This document shows, piece by piece, positions 3,629-28,437 of a stretch of 36,726 nucleotides of DNA. The stretch is taken from positions 1-36,726 of the IMG/VR virus record IMGVR_UViG_3300009285_000157, one strand, 5' to 3'. The stretch is from a virus. Made by a program: the position numbers and the translations under genes. Positions within the stretch are counted from its first letter, which is position 1, and every line of letters starts with the position of its first letter. Below the pieces are notes generated by a model. That model searched no databases and was not told the DNA's origin. It saw only the letters and a list, made by a program, of their open reading frames with translations.

Positions 3629-4096
3629 TTATGCAGGAGTAGTAACAGACACCGCCGCATCCGAAGACAATGGACGATAAAGCAAATAGAAGTTCACCTG
3701 TCCTGCTGTTATAGCCGTCGATCCTATCGTTGCAATAATATCTGCTCCACCTCCGACTATTTGGGGGTGTGGAATAACACCCGCCCCGACCTCTGTGTCT
3801 GCATCAACATAAACGTCCCCTGCGTCAAGTGTCGTAGTGTTTGCAATCTGCGCCAAAAGCTGTGCCGTGTTGCTTGCTACACCAACTTCTAATGTCGCTG
3901 CTCCCGCAAGGTTGACCGTACAAACACCAAACACTGTTGCAAGAATATCACCCGTTACGGTAAATAACGTGTGTGCGCCAGTTGCCCCTGTTGTTGCTGT
4001 TACAAAAGTCCACGGAGCAATCAACAGAAACGCCTCATTACTGTCAAACACCTGATGATTGGCATCTCGTGAAATTGCATCATCGTACTTCGGCAT
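3629..4096 (-). CDS. Phage structural protein (virion beta protein)
   Basis: The gene encodes 155 residues, MPKYDDAISRDANHQVFDSN at the N-terminus. The core has TGATGAHTLFTVTGDILATV, then AGAATLEVGVASNTA, then YLLYRPLSSDAAV, a family of beta-rich proteins I recognise from structural clusters of uncultured phages, without a known function. It lies after a hairpin (4124-4146) and before the coiled-coil pair. The upstream region is AT-rich with no clear Shine-Dalgarno sequence. A virion surface role is inferred from context. Confidence 0.75.
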   Translation of the reverse strand: MPKYDDAISRDANHQVFDSNEAFLLIAPWTFVTATTGATGAHTLFTVTGDILATVFGVCTVNLAGAATLEVGVASNTAQLLAQIANTTTLDAGDVYVDADTEVGAGVIPHPQIVGGGADIIATIGSTAITAGQVNFYLLYRPLSSDAAVSVTTPA

Positions 4097-4159: not shown

Positions 4160-5137
4160 CTATGATACTGCTGGATGAAGAGCAATACCAATGACGTTTG
4201 TCGTGTTGGTGAAGCCCTGCATTTGAATACGACCAGAAGCTGTTGCTTCCCAGTCGGTGATTCCAGTACCCAAGAATGGAAGCCCTGTTACTAGAACGTG
4301 CCCTGTTGCCGTCTGAGCCGAAAGGTTCATACATGCAGTCATGGCTGTGCCATCGTTTGCTGAGAACGAATAGAAACTACAGTCTCTAAACTCTATCCAT
4401 CGGTCAATTGCCGAAGTTCCTGTAAAGAGAACGTGCGTTGGAGTTGCCCCGTCAATCGCAGCAATAAATCTACAGTTCTCAAATACGTTTCGTGAAGCTG
4501 CGTTCTCAAACTCGACAGTTGCGTTGGCTGCACCACCTCGCATAACAGTGTCTTGTCCGAACGTACAACCTACAAAGTAGTTTTCTTGTCCTGCGTCCAA
4601 GTTCAATGCACGCATTGCTGCGTCATCACCTGTAGTCGCGTTCAACGATCCCTTAAAGTCAACTCCTGCGAAGAAGTTGTAATCTCCGGTAATTGTGACT
4701 GGTTCATTGACATCAGCCGTTTGTGTTTGAGTCAAGTTCTTGAAAATACAACCGTTCTCAGAGATTGTGAAGGTCGTGCCTGCCGCCATACCAAACCCTG
4801 CTCTTACGTCTTGAACCGTTGGAGCTGCGCTACCGATCAAGTGAGCAAATCGCTTCGCCCAAGTAACTGATGCTGTTTCCGAAGTTCTACCAGTCCCGTC
4901 TGAGGGAGCGATAATTGCGACATCTTGCGCTCCGTCAGTCATTGCAGCATAAGCAGCAGTAACTGTCGCAAATGCGTCATCTTGGCTTTTACCGGCGTTC
5001 GCCGAGTCACTTCCTGCCGATGGGTCGATATAGAAAATCTCGCCAACATAAGGAATACCTACCATACCAGCGACATCTTCGGGCATAATTTTGTGTCCGT
5101 ATTTAAGTGCTGGAATATAATCTCGTGCTTTTCCCAT
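4160..5137 (-). CDS. Parallel beta-helix virion protein (pectate-lyase-like fold)
   Basis: The product has 325 residues. After an N-terminal segment MGKARDYIPALKYGHKIMPE, the sequence YIDPSAGSDSANAGKSQDDA with FATVTAAYAAM resembles the opening of DUF1565-type right-handed beta helices. It is followed by spaced short coils such as CIFKNLT, FFAGVDFKG, YFVGCTFGQ, VFENCRFIA and IEFRDCSFYS, each about 25 residues apart, which is the coil rhythm of a parallel beta helix. Phage proteins with this fold are often tailspikes or capsid spikes, some with glycan-degrading activity. No catalytic residues can be assigned here. It follows a 46-residue gene with one base between them. Confidence 0.8.
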   Translation of the reverse strand: MGKARDYIPALKYGHKIMPEDVAGMVGIPYVGEIFYIDPSAGSDSANAGKSQDDAFATVTAAYAAMTDGAQDVAIIAPSDGTGRTSETASVTWAKRFAHLIGSAAPTVQDVRAGFGMAAGTTFTISENGCIFKNLTQTQTADVNEPVTITGDYNFFAGVDFKGSLNATTGDDAAMRALNLDAGQENYFVGCTFGQDTVMRGGAANATVEFENAASRNVFENCRFIAAIDGATPTHVLFTGTSAIDRWIEFRDCSFYSFSANDGTAMTACMNLSAQTATGHVLVTGLPFLGTGITDWEATASGRIQMQGFTNTTNVIGIALHPAVS

Positions 5138-5279: not shown

Positions 5280-5295
5280 TTTAATCCTTATTAAA

Positions 5296-5329
5296 TTAAG
5301 ATACCCCCATATTGCAGGGGGTATCTTAA
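5296..5329 (-). terminator. Perfect 13-bp stem-loop downstream of capsid-associated gene
   Basis: TTAAGATACCCCC (5296-5308) and GGGGGTATCTTAA (5317-5329) are exact inverse complements around an 8-base loop. In the minus-strand transcript it lies 48 bases after the stop of the 238-residue gene and just before the 46-residue gene. The tail after the stem (UUUAAUAAGG) is only moderately U-rich, so partial termination that lowers expression of the downstream fibre genes is plausible. Confidence 0.65.
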
Positions 5330-5377
5330 CCTTACCTGCAAATCCTGAATTAACTCGTCAATTTGCACTAACTTGTA

Positions 5378-6094
5378 CTAGTCGATGATAAGATGCACTA
5401 GACCAACCGTGCTGTCTACAGATGCGACTTCAATCGCATTTCCAACAACATCAGATGATGTAGCGAACACCTTTACCGAACCGGCTACCGCTTGAGACGG
5501 AGAAACCGCACCAGCGTCTGCTGCTGTGTTTCCACCCGTGTCAAAGAGAACCGCAGTTGGACCACCCGACTGAATCCAGCCGAAGTAGTTTGCCGTCATT
5601 GCATAAAGAGCTGCACCAACCGCACCACCAGTTTTGGTAGTTGGGAATTGGATAACGCCCTTGTATGGGTTCTTGCGAACCGTAACCTGCGAAGAAGTTG
5701 TCAATGCGACTTTTAGAGGTCGATCCAAGTAAAATGTACAAACACCCGTTGTGGTCGCTTGGACATCATGTCTCTCGATTCGGAAGTGTTGACCGATACC
5801 AGTTGACGATTCGACATACAATTCTCCCTCGTCAAAGAGGTTTGCGGTAACCGCAGTTCCTCCAAGAGTGACCTGAACGGACTCGTCACCAATAGCCGCA
5901 GCAGCGTAAACCGCCATGCTTCTAAAGTTGGTGTCCTCTGCCGGCTCTTGCAAGAGGTTCCCTGCAACAAGTGCAGATGCCCCTGCCTTGACGTATCGGT
6001 ATTTATTACCGTACTTGTCAATCCCCCAAGCGCCCAAGACGTGCTGTTGGTACTGGCTCTCGTCATAGATTGCTTGTGATATTAGGTTTTCCAT
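5378..6094 (-). CDS. Capsid-associated protein (possible decoration protein)
   Basis: The product has 238 residues. It directly follows the major capsid gene and has a strong ribosome site (AGGAG before the ATG at 6094). The N-terminus has LGAWGIDKYGNKYRYVKAG, then GASALVAGNLLQEP, like proteins encoded next to the major capsid gene in many uncultured phages. The rest is Ala-, Val- and Thr-rich beta sequence without catalytic motifs. High expression is expected, since it lies between the consensus capsid promoter and a strong hairpin. A head-decoration or second capsid component role is inferred. Confidence 0.75.
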   Translation of the reverse strand: MENLISQAIYDESQYQQHVLGAWGIDKYGNKYRYVKAGASALVAGNLLQEPAEDTNFRSMAVYAAAAIGDESVQVTLGGTAVTANLFDEGELYVESSTGIGQHFRIERHDVQATTTGVCTFYLDRPLKVALTTSSQVTVRKNPYKGVIQFPTTKTGGAVGAALYAMTANYFGWIQSGGPTAVLFDTGGNTAADAGAVSPSQAVAGSVKVFATSSDVVGNAIEVASVDSTVGLVHLIID

Positions 6095-6119: not shown

Positions 6120-7190
6120 CTAGACTCCAGTAACACCAGTCAATCGTCCTTGTCGGCGTGGCTGTGTAGTAACTAAGTTTCCGAATAGATAGATGTGTCC
6201 AACTTCACCGTACTGATTAACGGGCTTCATCATTCCACTAAACTGCAATCCAGTGTTGGCTCCCGGCATTTCTGCGTAGACACCGTCTACGTTTCCACCA
6301 GCAACGACACCTTGCATATCTGGATCTTTAAGTCCGTACCAGTTAAGGTATTCCTCGTTTACAAACCAAACGGTCTGTGAGGTTGATTTCTCATCAGCAA
6401 TCCACGGAACGCCACGATATATAATCGAGGTGAATCCAAGTGCGCCTTTAAGATCACCAGCAGACATTGCACCACGACTCGTTCGAGTAACCATAGGATA
6501 CCCGTTAGCCTGATAGTTCGCCTGAACAGTTGGAGCCAAGAGTGATGTACCCAAGTTCCAGACTGTCTCATCGGAGACTATAATCGTTGGCTTTTGTCTT
6601 GTTGCCGATCCACCTGATACCCCTGTGTAAAGGTTGTCAAGTTTCGTTAAAGTCATAGTTCCGCCTGATGCGGTTCGTGTACCAGCAAGAACTGGATAGG
6701 TCGTTCGTGACTGATTTCCGACTGTTGCAGCCGTAGTACCGTCATCGTTCAAGTTACCAAGTCCGTTAAAGTCCTTGCTAGAGTTGCCTGTTCCGTCACC
6801 ATAGAACATATCAGCAACATCATCTGCGGCATCGTTTGCCGAAGATTCCATCTCTACTTTTATAATATCCAGAACTCGTGATTCAGAAACGCCGTTTACC
6901 AGCTTTTCCAATCCCGGTACTGCAACGGGGATTTCGTAAGCCCGTGCATCGTAGGATAGGGTAATTCTCGTTTCAACAGTCGAGGTGCTGTGTTGGTCAA
7001 GTCCTGAGAATGAACCACCGAGATTGTTCTTGGCGATTTTGACAGGAAACTTTAGAGTTTCTCCTGACCATTTCTTACCATTGGAAATAAAACGATAAGT
7101 GACAAAGTTGTCTGACAAATACTGGTCAAACACCTTTGGAACAATCGTGTCTTGGGTTATAGAAATAACCCTTTGCGTAAATGCAGCCAT
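6120..7190 (-). CDS. Major capsid protein (HK97-fold, inferred)
   Basis: The product has 356 residues, a usual size for a major head protein. It begins MAAFTQRVISITQDTIVPKV and contains the pattern FPVKIAKNN, SYDARAYEIPVAVPGLEKLV, RQKPTIIVSDETVWNLG and a C-terminal GEVGHIYLFGNLVT. Long acidic helix-like text around residues 105-135 (VLDIIKVEMESSANDAADDV) fits the spine helix region of HK97-type coat proteins. It lies after the portal gene and has its own consensus promoter. No separate protease is seen nearby, so processing cannot be claimed. The ATG has no Shine-Dalgarno sequence, only an A-rich leader. Confidence 0.85.
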   Translation of the reverse strand: MAAFTQRVISITQDTIVPKVFDQYLSDNFVTYRFISNGKKWSGETLKFPVKIAKNNLGGSFSGLDQHSTSTVETRITLSYDARAYEIPVAVPGLEKLVNGVSESRVLDIIKVEMESSANDAADDVADMFYGDGTGNSSKDFNGLGNLNDDGTTAATVGNQSRTTYPVLAGTRTASGGTMTLTKLDNLYTGVSGGSATRQKPTIIVSDETVWNLGTSLLAPTVQANYQANGYPMVTRTSRGAMSAGDLKGALGFTSIIYRGVPWIADEKSTSQTVWFVNEEYLNWYGLKDPDMQGVVAGGNVDGVYAEMPGANTGLQFSGMMKPVNQYGEVGHIYLFGNLVTTQPRRQGRLTGVTGV

Positions 7191-7267: not shown

Positions 7268-7297
7268 ATTATAAGTGAGTAATAACACTAATGTCAA
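7268..7297 (-). promoter_or_regulatory. Consensus sigma-70 promoter for capsid genes
   Basis: On the minus strand, TTGACA (7292-7297) and TATAAT (7268-7273) are separated by 18 bases, so both boxes match the consensus exactly. Transcription should begin near 7261 and give a leader of about 70 bases before the capsid start at 7190. The leader has a small stem, GCATT/AATGC (7223-7237). This explains how capsid genes can be expressed above the packaging genes upstream. Confidence 0.85.
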
Positions 7298-12208: not shown

Positions 12209-12437
12209 GTATCAATTCGTCAACTAATTTCTGCTCTGCCCCATCCCTCTCATCCGCCACTTGTTGTGGGCTTTTCGCTGTCACCACACCCCCAACCTTC
12301 CTTGTTTCTACTGTCTCGACCTGTTTTTCTTCAATGGCACCACCCTTCATTCTACCAATTTCTACCCCTTCTAGGGTAAAATACGTTACATTTTCCCCCT
12401 CGTACACGGCTATAACCTGTACTAGTAGCGATTTCAT
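12195..12437 (-). CDS. Small unknown protein directly after GroEL
   Basis: The product has 80 residues. Its ATG overlaps the stop codon of the chaperonin gene, so translation is coupled. The first 30 residues look like a beta sheet (MKSLLVQVIAVYEGENVTYF, then TLEGVEIG), followed by MKGGAIEEKQVETVE and a charged helical end. The segment GGAIEEKQV resembles GGAIETKQV in the small terminase subunit encoded just downstream. The function is unknown. A role with the chaperonin is a guess from position only. Confidence 0.7.
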   Translation of the reverse strand: MKSLLVQVIAVYEGENVTYFTLEGVEIGRMKGGAIEEKQVETVETRKVGGVVTAKSPQQVADERDGAEQKLVDELIHGKD

Positions 12438-14011
12438 TCTCGCGGTGGCATCTCTTGCATTGGAATTAGTCTGCTAATCGTGAGTATCATAGTACCCACA
12501 GATACCGCATTTTCCATACACAATCTTACAACCTTAGTCGGATCGATAATCCCTGCTTCCATGAGGTCGACTACCTTCCCGCCCATAGCCTCGTACCCTT
12601 CTTTGTATTTCCCGTTTTTTTTGATACTTGTCATAATCTCGCCGATAGTCTTTTGAGATTCTCCACAATTCAACATTACTTTTCTCATTGGCTGTTCCAA
12701 TACTTCACGCATAAGCCTAGCACCGTCAGAATCACCCTTAATTGCTTGCGCAAGTCTAAGAAACGTAATACCACTCCCCGCAACAATTCCCTCTTCTAGG
12801 GCTGATTTTGCTGCCCCTACGGCATCTTTAACACGCTCCACCTTCTCCCTTGCTTCAGTTTCGGTTTTCGCACCGACTCTCACTACCGCAACACCTGTCG
12901 TCATTTTGGCTAGTCGCTCCTCATACGCCTCTTTAATCGCCACATTTGGTGCCTTTGCTAGTAAACCTTTGACTACCTTCACTTGGTCCTTAATGTCCTC
13001 GCTCTTTCCTTTCCCCCCTACAATCATTGTGACTTTCATATCGGCGACGACCTTATCCGCTTTACCCAAGAAAGATAGATCATTCACGTCCATATCAGCG
13101 TCGCTGGCAACAACCCTCCCCCCTGTAACAATAGCAATATCCTCCAAAAACCCTATTTTATTCTCTCCGTATCCGGGTGGTTTCACGACCAAACAGTTAA
13201 TCGTGCCGTTCATCTTGTTTGCTACTAAAATCTTTAACGCAACACCACCTACATCTCCAACTATTACTATGTTCTTAAACCCCTTTGTTACAATAGCCTC
13301 AATAATTGGTACTATCTCCAACTGTGTGGTAATGTTTCTGTCCGTAATGATAATCACGGGATTATTAACTACTGCTTCGTTCCGGTTTGGATCCGTTATG
13401 AAGTACGGCGAACTAAATCCTCTTGCGATACTCATTCCGTCAGTCTTGTCAACATATGTCTCATAGCTTCCTGACTCTTCTACGGTAACTAATCCCTCGA
13501 TACCCATCTCAAACACTGCCTTTCCTACCATGTCACCAATTTCTTTGCTTGCTGAACTAATGGTCGCCACTTGCTGTAATTCTGATACTGTCTTTGCAGG
13601 TTTGCTAATTTTTGTTAGTTCATCTTTTGTGTCCGCTAGTGCTTGGTATATCTCATCACGCAACACCATTGGATTGACCCCATTCTCCTTCAGTTTCATG
13701 CCTCTACTGACAATTTCATACGCTAACAATGTTGAGGTAGTCGTCCCGTCTCCTGCTTCCTCGTTAGTCTTTTGTGCTGCTTCTTTCACCATATCAATAC
13801 CCATCTGTACAAACTTGTCTGTGCTTCTAACTTCTTTCGCTACCGTAACACCATCGTGAACCACAATGGGTGTTCCCCAATTCCTCTGAATAGCCACGTT
13901 GTTCCCCTTGGGTGAAAGTGTCGTGCAAACAGTTTCATAAAGAAGATGAACGCCCGTTAAGAGCTTTTCCTGCGCCTTTTTACCGAAAATAATATCTTTG
14001 GATGTTTTCAT
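12434..14011 (-). CDS. groEL: Chaperonin GroEL (Cpn60)
   Basis: The product has 525 residues against about 548 in bacteria. Conserved elements are in order: KDIIFGKKAQ at the start, TLSPKGNNVAIQ, VVHDGVTVAKE (Asp 53), GDGTTTSTLLA (87-97), GFSSPYFITD in the apical domain, VKDAVGAAKSALEEGIVAGSG for the nucleotide pocket and GIIDPTKVVRLCMENA near the end. The ATPase residues therefore look intact. The end is EMPPRE, without the usual Gly-Gly-Met tail. It would fold phage or host proteins with the GroES encoded at 15170-15436. The best Shine-Dalgarno-like sequence (AAGGAG) is about 35 bases upstream, so initiation may be unusual. Confidence 0.95.
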   Translation of the reverse strand: MKTSKDIIFGKKAQEKLLTGVHLLYETVCTTLSPKGNNVAIQRNWGTPIVVHDGVTVAKEVRSTDKFVQMGIDMVKEAAQKTNEEAGDGTTTSTLLAYEIVSRGMKLKENGVNPMVLRDEIYQALADTKDELTKISKPAKTVSELQQVATISSASKEIGDMVGKAVFEMGIEGLVTVEESGSYETYVDKTDGMSIARGFSSPYFITDPNRNEAVVNNPVIIITDRNITTQLEIVPIIEAIVTKGFKNIVIVGDVGGVALKILVANKMNGTINCLVVKPPGYGENKIGFLEDIAIVTGGRVVASDADMDVNDLSFLGKADKVVADMKVTMIVGGKGKSEDIKDQVKVVKGLLAKAPNVAIKEAYEERLAKMTTGVAVVRVGAKTETEAREKVERVKDAVGAAKSALEEGIVAGSGITFLRLAQAIKGDSDGARLMREVLEQPMRKVMLNCGESQKTIGEIMTSIKKNGKYKEGYEAMGGKVVDLMEAGIIDPTKVVRLCMENAVSVGTMILTISRLIPMQEMPPRE

Positions 14012-14668: not shown

Positions 14669-14697
14669 ATTGTAGCCCTATGGCGTAGAGTTGTCAA
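14669..14697 (-). promoter_or_regulatory. Promoter for HNH gene, likely leaderless
   Basis: TTGACA (14692-14697) and TACAAT (14669-14674) on the minus strand are 17 bases apart. The expected start of transcription, about seven bases after the -10 box, falls on the ATG of the HNH gene at 14663-14661. The message would therefore have little or no leader. It probably also feeds the chaperonin and packaging genes. Confidence 0.75.
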
Positions 14698-19810: not shown

Positions 19811-20363
19811 TCTTCTCCTCGTTATCTAATTTCTCGACCTCGACCTTTAACTCCTCTATCTTCTTGAGCAGTACAGCTTTCTGTTCTGACTTTTTGTTGT
19901 CTTCTGGCATACCTAGCTCCTTCAAAATGCCGTACTCAACTACCCCATAACCTTCTTTTCTTCCGCAAGTTATAGTCTTTTCATCTTCGCTTATTTCTCT
20001 CCATGTATAAATACCCGCAAATGCTTTTAATCCAAACTTTAACAACCCCTTACAGGTTATCTGCAACCCTGCTTGTATACCGTAAGACTCACCAGCTTCG
20101 ATATACTCACCAGCTTCGATATACCCACCAGCTTCGATAGACCCACCAGCTTCGATAGACCCACCAGCTTCGATAGACCCACCAGCTTTGATAGACCCAC
20201 CAGCTTCGATAGACCCACCAGCTTCGATAGACCCACTTACATAAAGTCCCTTATCTAGGTCAACCGTAATCGAACCAGTCGCTTCCAACGAGTCTTCAAT
20301 CTCATATCGCCAACCAACGCTCTTTAGTCCCTTGTAGCTCTTCGTAACTATTAAGTCTTTCAT
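19800..20363 (-). CDS. Short-repeat beta-solenoid protein with IEAGGS repeats
   Basis: The product has 187 residues. Residues about 45-92 are eight near-perfect six-residue repeats (SIEAGG, later YIEAGE), encoded by the 18-base repeat at 20087-20230. Such hexapeptide arrays form compact beta helices as in bactofilin-like proteins. The N-terminus (SVGWRYEIEDSLEATGSITV) leads into them, and the C-terminal 80 residues include TCKGLLKFGLKAFAGIYTWR and a coiled-coil tail. The role is unknown. Repeat number may vary by slippage. Confidence 0.75.
   Translation of the reverse strand: MKDLIVTKSYKGLKSVGWRYEIEDSLEATGSITVDLDKGLYVSGSIEAGGSIEAGGSIKAGGSIEAGGSIEAGGSIEAGGYIEAGEYIEAGESYGIQAGLQITCKGLLKFGLKAFAGIYTWREISEDEKTITCGRKEGYGVVEYGILKELGMPEDNKKSEQKAVLLKKIEELKVEVEKLDNEEKNVE
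20087..20230 (-). repeat. Eight tandem 18-base units
   Basis: The plus-strand unit ACCCACCAGCTTCGATAG occurs eight times with few changes: the first two units read ACTCACC, three units end in a different base, and one has TTTGATAG. It codes for the IEAGGS repeats and shows no spacers, so it is not a CRISPR array. Confidence 0.9.
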
Positions 20364-23237: not shown

Positions 23238-23516
23238 TTATTCACCCTCCTCATCTCTCACATCATCTCTAATCGTGTCGTCCCTGTCGTCTACCCAGCC
23301 ATCGCTTTCTCTTTGTAAATACTCAAGCATAATCTTGTAGTCAACAGGATCTAAATACTCGCCACTGATTAAGAACACCTTAAATGTTGGTTGCGCGAAG
23401 TCCTTTACTGAAACAATAAAATGCTGATTGCGGAAGTCGAAGTATAGGGTTTCTGCACCAACCATAATACCCACTCGGCTTTCCGTTGTCCTGACAAGAT
23501 TTTGTATCTCTGACAT
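23238..23516 (-). CDS. Unknown early protein with acidic tail
   Basis: The product has 92 residues. The N-terminal part looks beta-rich (GIMVGAETLYFDFRNQHFIV) and the end is strongly acidic (DGWVDDRDDTIRDDVRDEEG). It is the first gene after early promoter 1, and its leader is nearly identical to that of the annealing-protein gene. An acidic tail on an early protein could be a DNA mimic, but this is only speculation. Confidence 0.65.
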   Translation of the reverse strand: MSEIQNLVRTTESRVGIMVGAETLYFDFRNQHFIVSVKDFAQPTFKVFLISGEYLDPVDYKIMLEYLQRESDGWVDDRDDTIRDDVRDEEGE

Positions 23517-23541: not shown

Positions 23542-23569
23542 AGTATACCACACTACAGTACAGTGTCAA
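23542..23569 (-). promoter_or_regulatory. Early promoter 1 with operator-like palindrome
   Basis: TTGACA (23564-23569) and TATACT (23542-23547) lie 16 bases apart on the minus strand. Overlapping the spacer is ACACTACAGTACAGTGT (23550-23566, plus strand), with 5-bp arms ACACT/AGTGT. It is the closest match in the window to promoter 2 in spacing, palindrome and leader, which suggests control by one repressor. Confidence 0.8.
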
Positions 23570-24668: not shown

Positions 24669-25112
24669 TTAATTATAACCTAATTTAGATATGATATTGA
24701 TTCGTTCCAATAAATCTTTGTAAATCGCTTGCAGTTCTCCAACCGACAAACTCATCTGTTCAACCAACTTTTCTCGCTGTAACCATTCCCACTCTTGTGG
24801 CTTAATTCCTCGATACCACCTTTCTGATGCTTCGGGATGGTCGTGCCACCAACTATGACAATTTCTACATAACTTCTCGGCATTCCGTATATCCCAACGT
24901 AAAATCATGTACGTTTTCGACACCGTATGCGAGCAGTCAAACACCCCCGTAGTTCTACCACACCTCTTACATCCCCCATTTGTCATTTTTACCAGTTTGC
25001 TAAACGCAGTGTCACACTTGTATATCAAGTCTGCCCTCGTTCGATTTTGAGCCGTTTTTGGCAACGCAGCTAGTGAGTTAAACAGCTCTTCCTCTTTAGA
25101 AATCAACTTCAT
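24669..25112 (-). CDS. NinG/Rap-like recombination nuclease
   Basis: The product has 147 residues. NGGCKRCGRTTGVFDCSHTV (Cys48, Cys51) and NAEKLCRNCHSWWHDHPEAS (Cys82, Cys85, His86) form a zinc-bound HNH-like site, in the layout of lambda NinG (Rap), a junction-cutting nuclease. It starts inside the end of the replication gene, with a 17-base overlap. It likely helps resolve recombination or replication intermediates. Confidence 0.75.
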   Translation of the reverse strand: MKLISKEEELFNSLAALPKTAQNRTRADLIYKCDTAFSKLVKMTNGGCKRCGRTTGVFDCSHTVSKTYMILRWDIRNAEKLCRNCHSWWHDHPEASERWYRGIKPQEWEWLQREKLVEQMSLSVGELQAIYKDLLERINIISKLGYN

Positions 25113-25809
25113 CGGGGTCTACCATTAGCTTATCTATATCTTCCGCCTTAGTTTTCATTTCATGTGATTTCTTTAACAACCTTTCAACCAACTGCTTTGC
25201 GTGTTCAGACATTTCCAGTTTCTGATTTCCCATTTCTTCTTTCTCTATTTGGGTTTCTGGTTTCTTATTTCTTATTTCTGTTTTCTGGGCGGTATGTATA
25301 GGGGTACTTATGGGGGTATATTTACCTGTATCTGTTAGGTATGCATACCTGTTATCTACCCTATCAAAGAACTTTGCCAACTTTTGATAGCTTTCGCTCG
25401 GACTGCTTCTATAGGGTTTTATATCTAAGTCTATTTCTGACATCCAAAGCCCAATTTCCTTTGCGAAGAACAGTATAACCTCGTCAGACATCTCAAATAT
25501 CGTTCTCAGCTTCGGATTGGCGTTTTTGATGCCAGAGTACGTCTGATACTTGTATGCGTTGCGAACGTATATGTAATCACCATACAGCTTTAACTTGCCG
25601 TCCGTCCCAAACATCGCAAGCCACTCTGCAACTTCCCGTGCATTGATACCAGTTTGCTGTGCAATGACAGCCACAGGTACTTCAATAACACCCAGTACGT
25701 CTATGTACTCATTTGTAACTAGCCAAAGAAACAGTAATTTACCCTCTGGCTTCAAGCCGTGAAAGTATCCATCTGCCCATATCTTAGTGTGTATTACTCG
25801 TGCTTCCAT
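25096..25809 (-). CDS. Replication initiation protein (RepO/DnaD-like)
   Basis: The product has 237 residues. The N-terminal domain starts with TKIWADGYFHGLKPEGKLLF then LWLVTNEYIDVLGVIEVPVA and IAQQTGINAREVAEWLAMF, which fits the winged-helix part of phage replisome organisers. A central polar stretch is followed by a C-terminal helical region. It probably binds the origin and loads host helicase. The gene has a long structured leader (25834-25919) and no Shine-Dalgarno sequence, with the start codon preceded by an A-rich stretch. This suggests translational control. Confidence 0.75.
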   Translation of the reverse strand: MEARVIHTKIWADGYFHGLKPEGKLLFLWLVTNEYIDVLGVIEVPVAVIAQQTGINAREVAEWLAMFGTDGKLKLYGDYIYVRNAYKYQTYSGIKNANPKLRTIFEMSDEVILFFAKEIGLWMSEIDLDIKPYRSSPSESYQKLAKFFDRVDNRYAYLTDTGKYTPISTPIHTAQKTEIRNKKPETQIEKEEMGNQKLEMSEHAKQLVERLLKKSHEMKTKAEDIDKLMVDPDEVDF

Positions 25810-25812
25810 TTT

Positions 25813-25829
25813 TTGCGATCTTTAATTTA
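25813..25829. repeat. Direct repeat, copy 1
   Basis: TTGCGATCTTTAATTTA matches TTGCGTTTTTTAATTTA (25933-25949) at 15 of 17 positions. The copies flank the large hairpin of the replication-gene leader. They may be origin iterons or duplicated regulatory sites. Confidence 0.65.
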
Positions 25830-25833
25830 TATT

Positions 25834-25919
25834 CAGTAACACAAGAGGGAGAAGTAGTCGAACACGCAGAATCGCAAAAAACTGCTTGCCGATTGTTACC
25901 TCCCCCTCTTGCACTACTG
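25834..25919 (-). promoter_or_regulatory. Long hairpin leader with loop complementary to the start region
   Basis: Left arm CAGTA (25834-25838) and CAAGAGGGAGAAGTA (25842-25856) pair with TACCTCCCCCTCTTG (25897-25911) and TACTG (25915-25919), using G-U pairs in RNA. Higher up, GCAG (25866-25869) and CTGC (25882-25885) close a 12-base loop (25870-25881). That loop (minus strand UUUUUUGCGAU) is perfectly complementary over 11 bases to the sequence just before and including the A of the start codon (25809-25819). A pseudoknot or switch that hides the start is therefore possible. Confidence 0.65.
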
Positions 25920-25932
25920 ATTATTTTCACTA

Positions 25933-25949
25933 TTGCGTTTTTTAATTTA
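25933..25949. repeat. Direct repeat, copy 2
   Basis: TTGCGTTTTTTAATTTA, the second copy of the repeat at 25813-25829, differs by two bases. It lies between the promoter and the hairpin, so it is in the transcribed leader. Confidence 0.65.
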
Positions 25950-25959
25950 CCCTATGAAC

Positions 25960-25988
25960 ATCTTACATGGTAATCATAAACGTGTCAA
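25960..25988 (-). promoter_or_regulatory. Promoter of the replication-lysis operon
   Basis: TTGACA (25983-25988) and TAAGAT (25960-25965) are 17 bases apart on the minus strand. Transcription should start near 25953, giving a leader of about 145 bases that carries the hairpin and both repeats. The palindrome found in the two early promoters is not visible here, so regulation differs. Confidence 0.75.
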
Positions 25989-26035
25989 CTGCCATAAATG
26001 GACGTGGTATAGCTTTTTAGCGTTGTCAAATCACC

Positions 26036-26338
26036 CTATTTAGCTAGAACTTTCTGCACCAAATCTATTAGTGAGGCTATCGAAGAAACTCCAAGCACCC
26101 CCATCATAGCCCAGAAAAACCTTGCGTTGGATAGTATCGTATTAACTGTCTGCACCGTCTTTTCGTGCCTTGCAACTTGACCTACTAAACCTTCCTCTTG
26201 AAACTCTGCCGAGCCAAACAGCCCCCTCTCTACCCTTCTCTGCGAATCAAATAACACTTTCTGATTATCGACAACCGAGTTTACTGTACTCTTAATTTCG
26301 GTTATATCGTTTTGTAAGTTTGCCATAGTTGGTTGCAT
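26036..26338 (-). CDS. Coiled-coil protein with C-terminal membrane segment (XhlA-like)
   Basis: The product has 100 residues. The first 60 residues form a coiled coil (LQNDITEIKSTVNSVVDNQK) and the end has a hydrophobic helix (FFWAMMGVLGVSSIASLIDL). This layout resembles XhlA-type lysis accessory proteins, but without sequence identity I rely on topology. It starts two bases after the end of the large virion gene. An internal ATG (MANLQND) is a possible start. Confidence 0.6.
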   Translation of the reverse strand: MQPTMANLQNDITEIKSTVNSVVDNQKVLFDSQRRVERGLFGSAEFQEEGLVGQVARHEKTVQTVNTILSNARFFWAMMGVLGVSSIASLIDLVQKVLAK

Positions 26339-26340
26339 GG

Positions 26341-28437
26341 TTAAAAGGCGGTCTGCCCGTTACTAAAGTAAAGTTCCTCTGATGTTCCTTTTTGGCTCAT
26401 TGTGTCGTCAAATAATCCCTGCAAGTATTTCAACTGATACCTGACCGAATCCTCATTACCCCAAAAGTTCGATAGGTAATCTTCTGCCCTTGCTTTCAAC
26501 TCCTTTTCACTAAATGCGGCTCCCGATTGTATATAAATCGAGGACATAGCAGCGTCAAGTAGTGCTGCATAAAGCGTTCTATCCCCGATGCCCAACGCAC
26601 CCTTTGCGACACCAGTAGCCCTTATCTTATTCATATCGAGTGTTCCGTCGTCTTTGTAAATCCTCTCCTTGATAGTACTCATGGCACGATTACCCGCTCT
26701 TGCCTTATTTACTGATTGAATCTGAGTCGCATTTAACGGCTTTTCCGCCGGATTAAGTTCTTTCTGGTATTTCAACTCATCGTTGTACATCTGGCGTAAG
26801 AATGATGCGGTCTTATTATCTCCGGCGTTGTGCGCATTCATCATCTCACGGTATATTTCTTGTGGTGAATGACCAGTAATATAATGGTTTTGTTGTGCTG
26901 GTGATCCTGTCTCTACGTTGCCCCCACCCATATCCACCGATTCGCCAGGCTTATACAGTCTACCCGAAGTCGTAGCACCTGCACTTGGTACTGCCAATTC
27001 TGATTGTTCCTGCGTCTGTTCTTGCGGTTGCTCCACTGTCGGTGTTGCTGGAGAAAATCTCGATGCAATCTGCCCTGCTTTTGCAATACCCCCTACAGGT
27101 GTCTTCGCTGCAAATTGTAGTCCCTTACCAATCCCAGACATTGTTTTACCTGCGACACTAAAGGCTAGTGGTGAACCTGTCAACTGTTCTACTATCTTTG
27201 ATGGCTTGACCAGTCCACCAACCAGTCCTGCATATTCCCTGTTTCCCATTAGCTCACGAAACTTTCGCAAAGACTGTAATTCTTTACCCACGGATGCAGA
27301 ACCCGGTACAATGTTGTCAATATACTCGATAGCCAATGCGCCCGCCTTTTCTTCAGCTCTTTTTGCTGCGGCTATCTGTGGATTTTCTACTTTTATTCCT
27401 CGATATAAATCCGACTTAATATCCGTGATTTCCGAAACTGGAACTGTTTTTCTACCACTCTTTTGTGCTAAATCCTCTATTGCTTTTGCTTTTGCCTCTA
27501 GCGCATCGGCTATCATTTCTTGTGCTGGATTTATGCCACCCCTCATTCCCCGTGCTTCCTTTCTTAGTATCGATGTATAGTCCGATGGATTTACCTCTAT
27601 ATTCTTATTCCTCGCTTTAGAGTCGTATAGTGCCTGTTTTTGTACAATTAGGTCATCCGTCTTTTCTATTATTTGTTTGGTATTACCAGTTAATTTGTAC
27701 TTATTTACCACTTTCGAGAGTTCCTGTTGTGTAGACTTCTTGAAGTTCTTGAGGTCTGCTGCTGTAAGTTTTGTTTGCCGTGCCGAAACCTGCTGACCAA
27801 TCTCTTCTAATCTTGCACCTTTTTGCGCCATTTTTGGACCGACCTTTGCCTTGGACAGGAGTTTGCTGGTCTGCGCCAATGGGTCAATCACGGCACCTGC
27901 CCTTGTAAGTTCACCCCCCAGCTTTGCTAACTTCGCAGATTTTGTAACCGTTCCGACCTTCCCGGCAACTGAACCCGCCCCACCTGCTAGTATAGACATA
28001 TCCATCGCCCAACCGATGGGGTCATCGTGTATGGTGTTTGCTATGTTTTGCACACCGCCATACCTATTCTTGTAGAATTTCCCGACGTTTCTTACCTGCT
28101 CTTCAGACTTCGTATAATTACCTTTCTTGTCCGTGAAGACCCTTGACGCAAGCTGTGCTGAACCTAAACCAAGTCGTCCCAAATTTGTTACGGTGTTCTT
28201 TTCCATGTTCGGATTGAAAACATTCACCGCTGCAGAACCAATATCTTTTGCCGCCCTAAAGGCACTCTTTGGAACATTTTTTGCGAAACCCAACGCAGAT
28301 TTACCCAATAGCCCTAGATTTTGTGTAATACGTTGTCCGAATGTCTGCCCCTTCTGTTTCGACTGCTTTACCTCTGGGTCTGTAGCTCCATCGTTCACCC
28401 ACACTTCCATTCCGTTTTTATCTTTTTTCCATGACAT
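26341..28437 (-). CDS. Large internal-virion (ejection) protein, putative
   Basis: The product has 698 residues. The N-terminus includes MSWKKDKNGMEVWVNDGATD, then a long stretch of small and Lys-rich helices (LGKSALGFAKNVPKSAFRAA), then a Gly/Ala-rich part and many helices up to the end. Long, polar, Ala- and Gln-rich proteins between the tail genes and the lysis genes are usually ejected with DNA in short-tailed phages. No transglycosylase motif was found. Residues near 470-500 are Gln- and Pro-rich (VEQPQEQTQEQSELAVPS). Confidence 0.7.
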   Translation of the reverse strand: MSWKKDKNGMEVWVNDGATDPEVKQSKQKGQTFGQRITQNLGLLGKSALGFAKNVPKSAFRAAKDIGSAAVNVFNPNMEKNTVTNLGRLGLGSAQLASRVFTDKKGNYTKSEEQVRNVGKFYKNRYGGVQNIANTIHDDPIGWAMDMSILAGGAGSVAGKVGTVTKSAKLAKLGGELTRAGAVIDPLAQTSKLLSKAKVGPKMAQKGARLEEIGQQVSARQTKLTAADLKNFKKSTQQELSKVVNKYKLTGNTKQIIEKTDDLIVQKQALYDSKARNKNIEVNPSDYTSILRKEARGMRGGINPAQEMIADALEAKAKAIEDLAQKSGRKTVPVSEITDIKSDLYRGIKVENPQIAAAKRAEEKAGALAIEYIDNIVPGSASVGKELQSLRKFRELMGNREYAGLVGGLVKPSKIVEQLTGSPLAFSVAGKTMSGIGKGLQFAAKTPVGGIAKAGQIASRFSPATPTVEQPQEQTQEQSELAVPSAGATTSGRLYKPGESVDMGGGNVETGSPAQQNHYITGHSPQEIYREMMNAHNAGDNKTASFLRQMYNDELKYQKELNPAEKPLNATQIQSVNKARAGNRAMSTIKERIYKDDGTLDMNKIRATGVAKGALGIGDRTLYAALLDAAMSSIYIQSGAAFSEKELKARAEDYLSNFWGNEDSVRYQLKYLQGLFDDTMSQKGTSEELYFSNGQTAF

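Follow-up and report, generated by a model that had tools for sequence, protein, structure and literature searches.

The locus considered here raises the question of whether the leader of a phage replication gene can open and close the start codon of that gene through RNA structure. The gene lies in a 36.7-kb window (the whole stretch of viral DNA analysed, 36,726 nucleotides), in which nearly all genes are on the minus strand, and the initial annotation had proposed that a hairpin loop in its leader hides the start codon in a pseudoknot. The reading developed below keeps the pairing between loop and start region and places it in a fold that excludes the hairpin.

The replication gene and its leader hairpin

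The gene (25096-25809, minus strand) encodes a 237-aa RepO/DnaD-like replication initiator, whose product matched PHROG 1701 (DnaD-like helicase loader, E=8.2e-8) and PHROG 6251 (replisome organizer, E=8.1e-6). These replisome organizer and helicase loader matches are accompanied by a winged-helix-like N-terminal domain, as expected of a phage RepO/DnaD-like initiator. The predicted structure is a low-confidence model in which the fold is confident only for approximately residues 11-90, comprising the winged-helix-like N-terminus, and a fold search with the whole model returned generic winged-helix matches only. The ATG at 25809-25807 was assigned as the start codon because two distant homologues, L003 and L015, share this starting point, with M-x-x-RVIHTK. 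A frameshift fusion of an upstream leader ORF to RepO via an A6 run was dropped as a candidate, since both homologues start exactly at the RepO ATG.

Upstream of this start, the minus strand contains a long hairpin in which the 5' arm (25920-25897) pairs with the 3' arm (25856-25833) in an unbroken run of 24 pairs that includes five G-U; approximately ten further inner pairs follow and are closed by a 12-nt apical loop, which carries TTTTTTGCGAT (inner stem and loop 25858-25892, loop 25870-25881, inner stem approximately 10.7 kcal/mol). Within the loop, UUUUUUGCGAU (25871-25881, read from 25881 to 25871 on the minus strand) forms 11 of 11 perfect Watson-Crick pairs with AUCGCAAAAAA in the start region (25809-25819), the last A of which is the A of the ATG. 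The coordinates and the 11-base complement given by the initial annotation proved exact on rechecking, and its hairpin was recovered; its stem of 15 pairs with G-U wobble plus five outer pairs was an underestimate, the structure being stronger and uninterrupted over 24 pairs. The 5' arm also buries GGAGGU (25902-25897), a consensus Shine-Dalgarno core that is followed by no start codon and is far from any start, and the 3' arm resembles the 16S anti-Shine-Dalgarno sequence in being rich in pyrimidines.

When both strands of the window were searched, the 24-pair stem was the longest uninterrupted one, the next having 16 pairs. The minus strand folded at -47.4 kcal/mol (z = -4.48 versus shuffles) compared with -36.6 kcal/mol for the plus strand (z = -2.80), the plus-strand fold being weakened by the loss of the five G-U pairs, which read as A-C there. 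At the DNA level, all five stem mismatches are G-U on the transcribed strand. This strand specificity would favour a function in RNA in the direction of the gene's transcription, as mismatches in both senses would be expected of a DNA palindrome in decay. An inverted-repeat assembly artefact was also considered and dropped, as G-U pairing accounts for all five differences between the arms.

The loop-to-start complement was assessed separately. Composition-preserving shuffles contained an 11-base complement of this kind in 8 of 20,000 cases. Upstream complements were also measured for 41 gene starts in the window: RepO reaches 11 nt, and none of the 40 others exceeds 7 nt; a random site reaches 11 bases with a frequency of 0.0012, or approximately 0.05 when corrected for 41 genes. 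The position of the complement, within the apical loop that caps the longest stem, probably makes chance a still poorer explanation. The leader structure is real, does not arise by chance and is an RNA-level element on a phage replication gene.

Putative leader transcript and start-site motif

A sigma70-type promoter-like site (TTGACA-17-TAAGAT, 25960-25988, minus strand) is suitably placed for a leader transcript. Approximately 30 nt after it lies a GTG at 25930, in an arrangement similar to that of the genes at 23238 and 21566, and this GTG opens a possible leader ORF of 48 codons (25784-25930, minus strand) that runs through the hairpin and shares 26 nt with the beginning of RepO. The leader ORF and RepO are each preceded by one copy of a direct repeat: copy 1 (25933-25949, minus strand) places TAAATTA 12 nt before the GTG, which is the standard spacing, and copy 2 (25813-25829, minus strand) places it 13 nt before the RepO ATG. 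Beyond this motif the two copies share a CGCAA core.

In the window, TAAATTA (UAAAUUA in the RNA) followed by ATG or GTG after 12-14 nt has seven occurrences on the minus strand and none on the plus strand. Six of these lie in front of predicted genes, most of which belong to the early region, and the remaining one is copy 1 of the direct repeat, before GTG 25930. Minus-strand starts with TAAATTA upstream, usually by 12-14 nt, are those at 5137, 22192, 22842, 23516, 24666, 25809 and 29274, and the sister promoter-like sites at 23569 and 22252 also precede genes with this motif. The motif could be a ribosome-binding enhancer or the target of a translational repressor. Translation of the leader ORF is possible on the basis of these signals; its codon usage is poor (2nd percentile among real genes).

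As the initial annotation stated, RepO is not preceded by a Shine-Dalgarno sequence, but in this phage that is the norm rather than a distinction: 33 of 42 genes have none, a 4-nt core being present at the usual place in the other 9. Such a situation is also known from Bacteroidetes (PMC6847099), whereas the promoter-like sites in the window resemble TTGACA/TATAAT and not the Bacteroidetes type. Among these sites, a 12/12 match to TTGACA-18-TATAAT is located at 7268-7297 (minus strand), just upstream of the gene at 6120-7190, and perfect TTGACA boxes were also seen at 14697, 22252 and 23569.

Scans for other known element types were negative. The hairpin stem is not followed by a T run, and neither strand carries a terminator-like structure there; a simple consensus scan of the plus strand from 25000 to 26600 found no promoter-like or terminator-like site for an antisense RNA; and Rfam covariance models run on the whole window gave nothing at the gathering threshold. 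Elsewhere in the window, a 16-bp terminator-like hairpin with an 8-nt loop (5293-5332, minus strand) lies between the genes at 4160-5137 and 5378-6094, and near-identical 18-bp tandem repeats at 20135-20220 (core TGGTGGGTCTATCG, minus strand) are self-complementary with G-U pairs.

Alternative folds and rival readings

In nested folding predictions of the full leader, the outer stem formed with P=0.97, loop-start pairing had P=0.000 and the start region was 0.77-0.79 unpaired. Masking the 5' arm with the upstream leader kept raised loop-start pairing to P=0.36-0.41. Masking the 5' arm with the upstream part removed, which mimics a ribosome at leader codons 4-10, raised it to P=0.91-0.96 and left the start region only 0.05-0.09 unpaired, while masking the 3' arm gave P=0.95. 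Because masking either arm raises loop-start pairing, the hairpin and the loop-start helix are alternatives, with the hairpin corresponding to the ON state. The part of the initial annotation that called for an RNA element on the replication-gene transcript, with a loop able to pair the start, is therefore retained, and the pseudoknot as drawn is not.

That pseudoknot, in which the loop of the intact hairpin would pair its own downstream start and block initiation, has the exact 11-nt complementarity in its favour, but we regard it as very improbable, since it is sterically implausible and was not predicted to win. By geometric reasoning from the coordinates, an 11-bp helix in the intact 12-nt loop leaves 0 nt for the crossing strand, and the linker at 25832-25820 provides 13 nt to span approximately 34 stacked pairs. 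Opening the inner stem would cost an estimated 10.7 kcal/mol (from -43.5 to -32.8), about equal to the gain from the new helix (-10.9 kcal/mol including initiation) before any pseudoknot penalty is included. By the same geometric reasoning, the leader would not accommodate the two coexisting stems and groove-spanning loops of an H-type pseudoknot operator like that of gene 32.

We tentatively interpret the leader of the replication initiator as a two-state translational switch that is ON by default, a reading to which we give somewhat less than an even chance. Transcription from TTGACA/TAAGAT (25988-25960) would begin near 25953 and produce a leader of approximately 140 nt, in which the 24-bp hairpin would form first and lift the anti-start sequence into the apical loop, out of reach of the start; RepO would then be translated for as long as the hairpin remained intact. 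Completion of the hairpin before the start region is transcribed would also favour the ON state. If a stem arm were occupied or removed, the freed loop sequence could base-pair with the start of RepO and shut it off. The most plausible occupier of an arm would be ribosomes on the leader ORF from GTG 25930, or otherwise a bound protein, an RNA or a nuclease. Regulation by the leader, its trigger and translation of the leader ORF are all inferred from these elements. The interpretation is consistent with a stem that is both the longest in the window and specific to the RNA strand, with a complement that is unique among the 41 starts, and with a promoter and start-site motif (12 nt before GTG 25930) arranged as they are for the early sister genes at 23238 and 21566. 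Several observations weigh against it, including the leader ORF codon usage, which does not look coding, the inner hairpin, which still competes when the 5' arm alone is masked (loop-start P approximately 0.4), and a hairpin so stable that switching would need an active agent, here only hypothetical. Additionally, searches found no homologous leader that could provide covariation or conservation, and the closest relative sharing structural genes is without this replication module.

The other readings assign the hairpin a different role. It may be a structural leader element only, serving mRNA stability, RNase III processing or the positioning of an AU-rich standby site near the RepO start, with the 11-nt complement arising by coincidence or from the repetition of the CGCAA motif; we consider this possible but rather doubtful. 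Such an element would fit the clear dominance of the stem over every other signal, a ground state with an accessible start and no loop-start pairing in the equilibrium ensemble, and the likeness of the loop sequence to an inverted form of the CGCAA motif found in both direct repeats; it would not fit a complement at the start codon that sits in the apical loop and is so rare (8 of 20,000 shuffles; one of 41 starts). Action in trans, with the loop of a processed hairpin or of a second transcript kissing the open mRNA start in the manner of an antisense RNA, appears quite unlikely. The ground state does combine a single-stranded loop with a mostly open start, the 11-bp duplex is worth -10.9 kcal/mol, and RNase III could plausibly cleave a 24-bp stem; yet the scan showed no processing site, separate promoter or terminator for such an RNA, and the loop sequence has no second copy near another gene start.

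A reading at the DNA level, with three CGCAA-containing copies (two direct and one inverted, approximately 60 bp apart) as operators or part of an origin, is improbable to a similar but slightly greater degree. A 17-nt direct repeat (88%) flanks the hairpin with the inverted copy midway, but the direct repeats contain the start-site motif of the phage, the stem pairs fully on the transcribed strand only, and a better-suited array lies inside the gene. This array consists of 3.7 copies of a 21-bp tandem repeat (25210-25286) and is a candidate for initiator-binding iterons or an origin; initiator-binding repeats lie more usually within the initiator gene, as lambda O illustrates. By this analogy, the array within RepO is probably a better origin candidate than the flanking direct repeats, and the earlier suggestion that the latter mark an origin is weakened accordingly.

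Relatives and comparable systems

No close RepO relative was found in IMG/VR or in GTDB genomes. The IMG/VR search returned 12 distant relatives with 30-38% identity over the N-terminus, and no corresponding hairpin was detected in their leaders or in that of Tenacibaculum phage JQ. The 16-pair stem in the L015 leader is a low-complexity repeat region, and that leader folds no better than shuffles (z=-0.60); directly upstream of its RepO homologue lies a low-complexity (GGTCGA/GGTCGT)n array (3720-3862), with two short hairpins in between. A pattern search of IMG/VR for TTTTTTGCG, a gap and CGCAAAAAATG returned 13 stretches, none in a comparable leader, and a stem-arm DNA pattern returned 10 stretches, none with a comparable hairpin.

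Searches with the neighbouring genes recovered zero relatives, and the terminase search recovered L005, L006 and L007, of which L005 (IMG sample 3300009285) has 88% identity in the terminase. The nearest complete-looking relative (G005) has structural genes with up to 64% identity and a different replication module, which suggests that a module may have been swapped at the junction where the hairpin lies. The record L007/G005 (IMGVR_UViG_3300006805_000010) is circularly permuted, spans 40.9 kb and has the structural module in common. The window also encodes a phage GroEL-like chaperonin (12434-14011, minus strand; PHROG 5725, E=3.5e-116), copies of which in G005 and L006 show 53-56% identity.

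Among known systems, the leader is similar to those of IncI/IncB/IncL-M plasmids (repY-repZ of ColIb-P9; repB-repA), in which an initiator mRNA has a leader ORF across a long hairpin and a loop that can pair with a site near the beginning of rep; the ORF at 25784-25930 is a possible counterpart of that leader ORF. For repZ of ColIb-P9, the loop of stem-loop I pairs upstream of the Shine-Dalgarno sequence, forming a pseudoknot, and activates translation, with an antisense RNA competing. Here the element belongs to a phage, the loop is complementary just upstream of the rep start over 11 nt that overlap the start codon itself and would repress, and no antisense gene was found; moreover, the RepO start is mostly unpaired instead of being sequestered in a ground-state nested stem. 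Exclusive helices combined with a leader ORF are also typical of erm-type translational attenuators, from which the present leader differs in that its predicted ground state is ON and its leader ORF is putative. In plasmids, repA has been found to need a leader peptide (PMC10286972), and replication is controlled by antisense stem-loops (PMC10724649).

Structured leaders also control translation of phage replication genes in T4 and RB69, where the gene 32 pseudoknot and the gene 43 hairpin are autogenous mRNA operators (PMC3014915). Those operators are short and bound by their own gene product, whereas the stem described here is far longer and a protein partner is hypothetical. In T4 e, soc, 49 and I-TevI, an RNA helix covers the start in one transcript form and leaves it free in another (PMC3014915), the longer transcript being OFF and the late, 5'-shortened one ON; the polarity predicted here is reversed. 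In this reversed-polarity form, the hairpin would hold the anti-start sequence away (ON) and leader-ORF ribosomes or another stem-opener would release it (OFF), a specific scheme that we judge unlikely. If true, it would provide negative control of replication in a phage mostly without Shine-Dalgarno sites.

Plasmids offer well-known examples of RNA control over replication initiators, whereas few have been described in phages. A review of T4 considered gene 32 to be perhaps the only viral pseudoknot in translational autoregulation (PMC3014915). A leader that hides the start, together with an unusual start-site motif in place of the Shine-Dalgarno sequence, would constitute a compact and testable switch on the decision to replicate.
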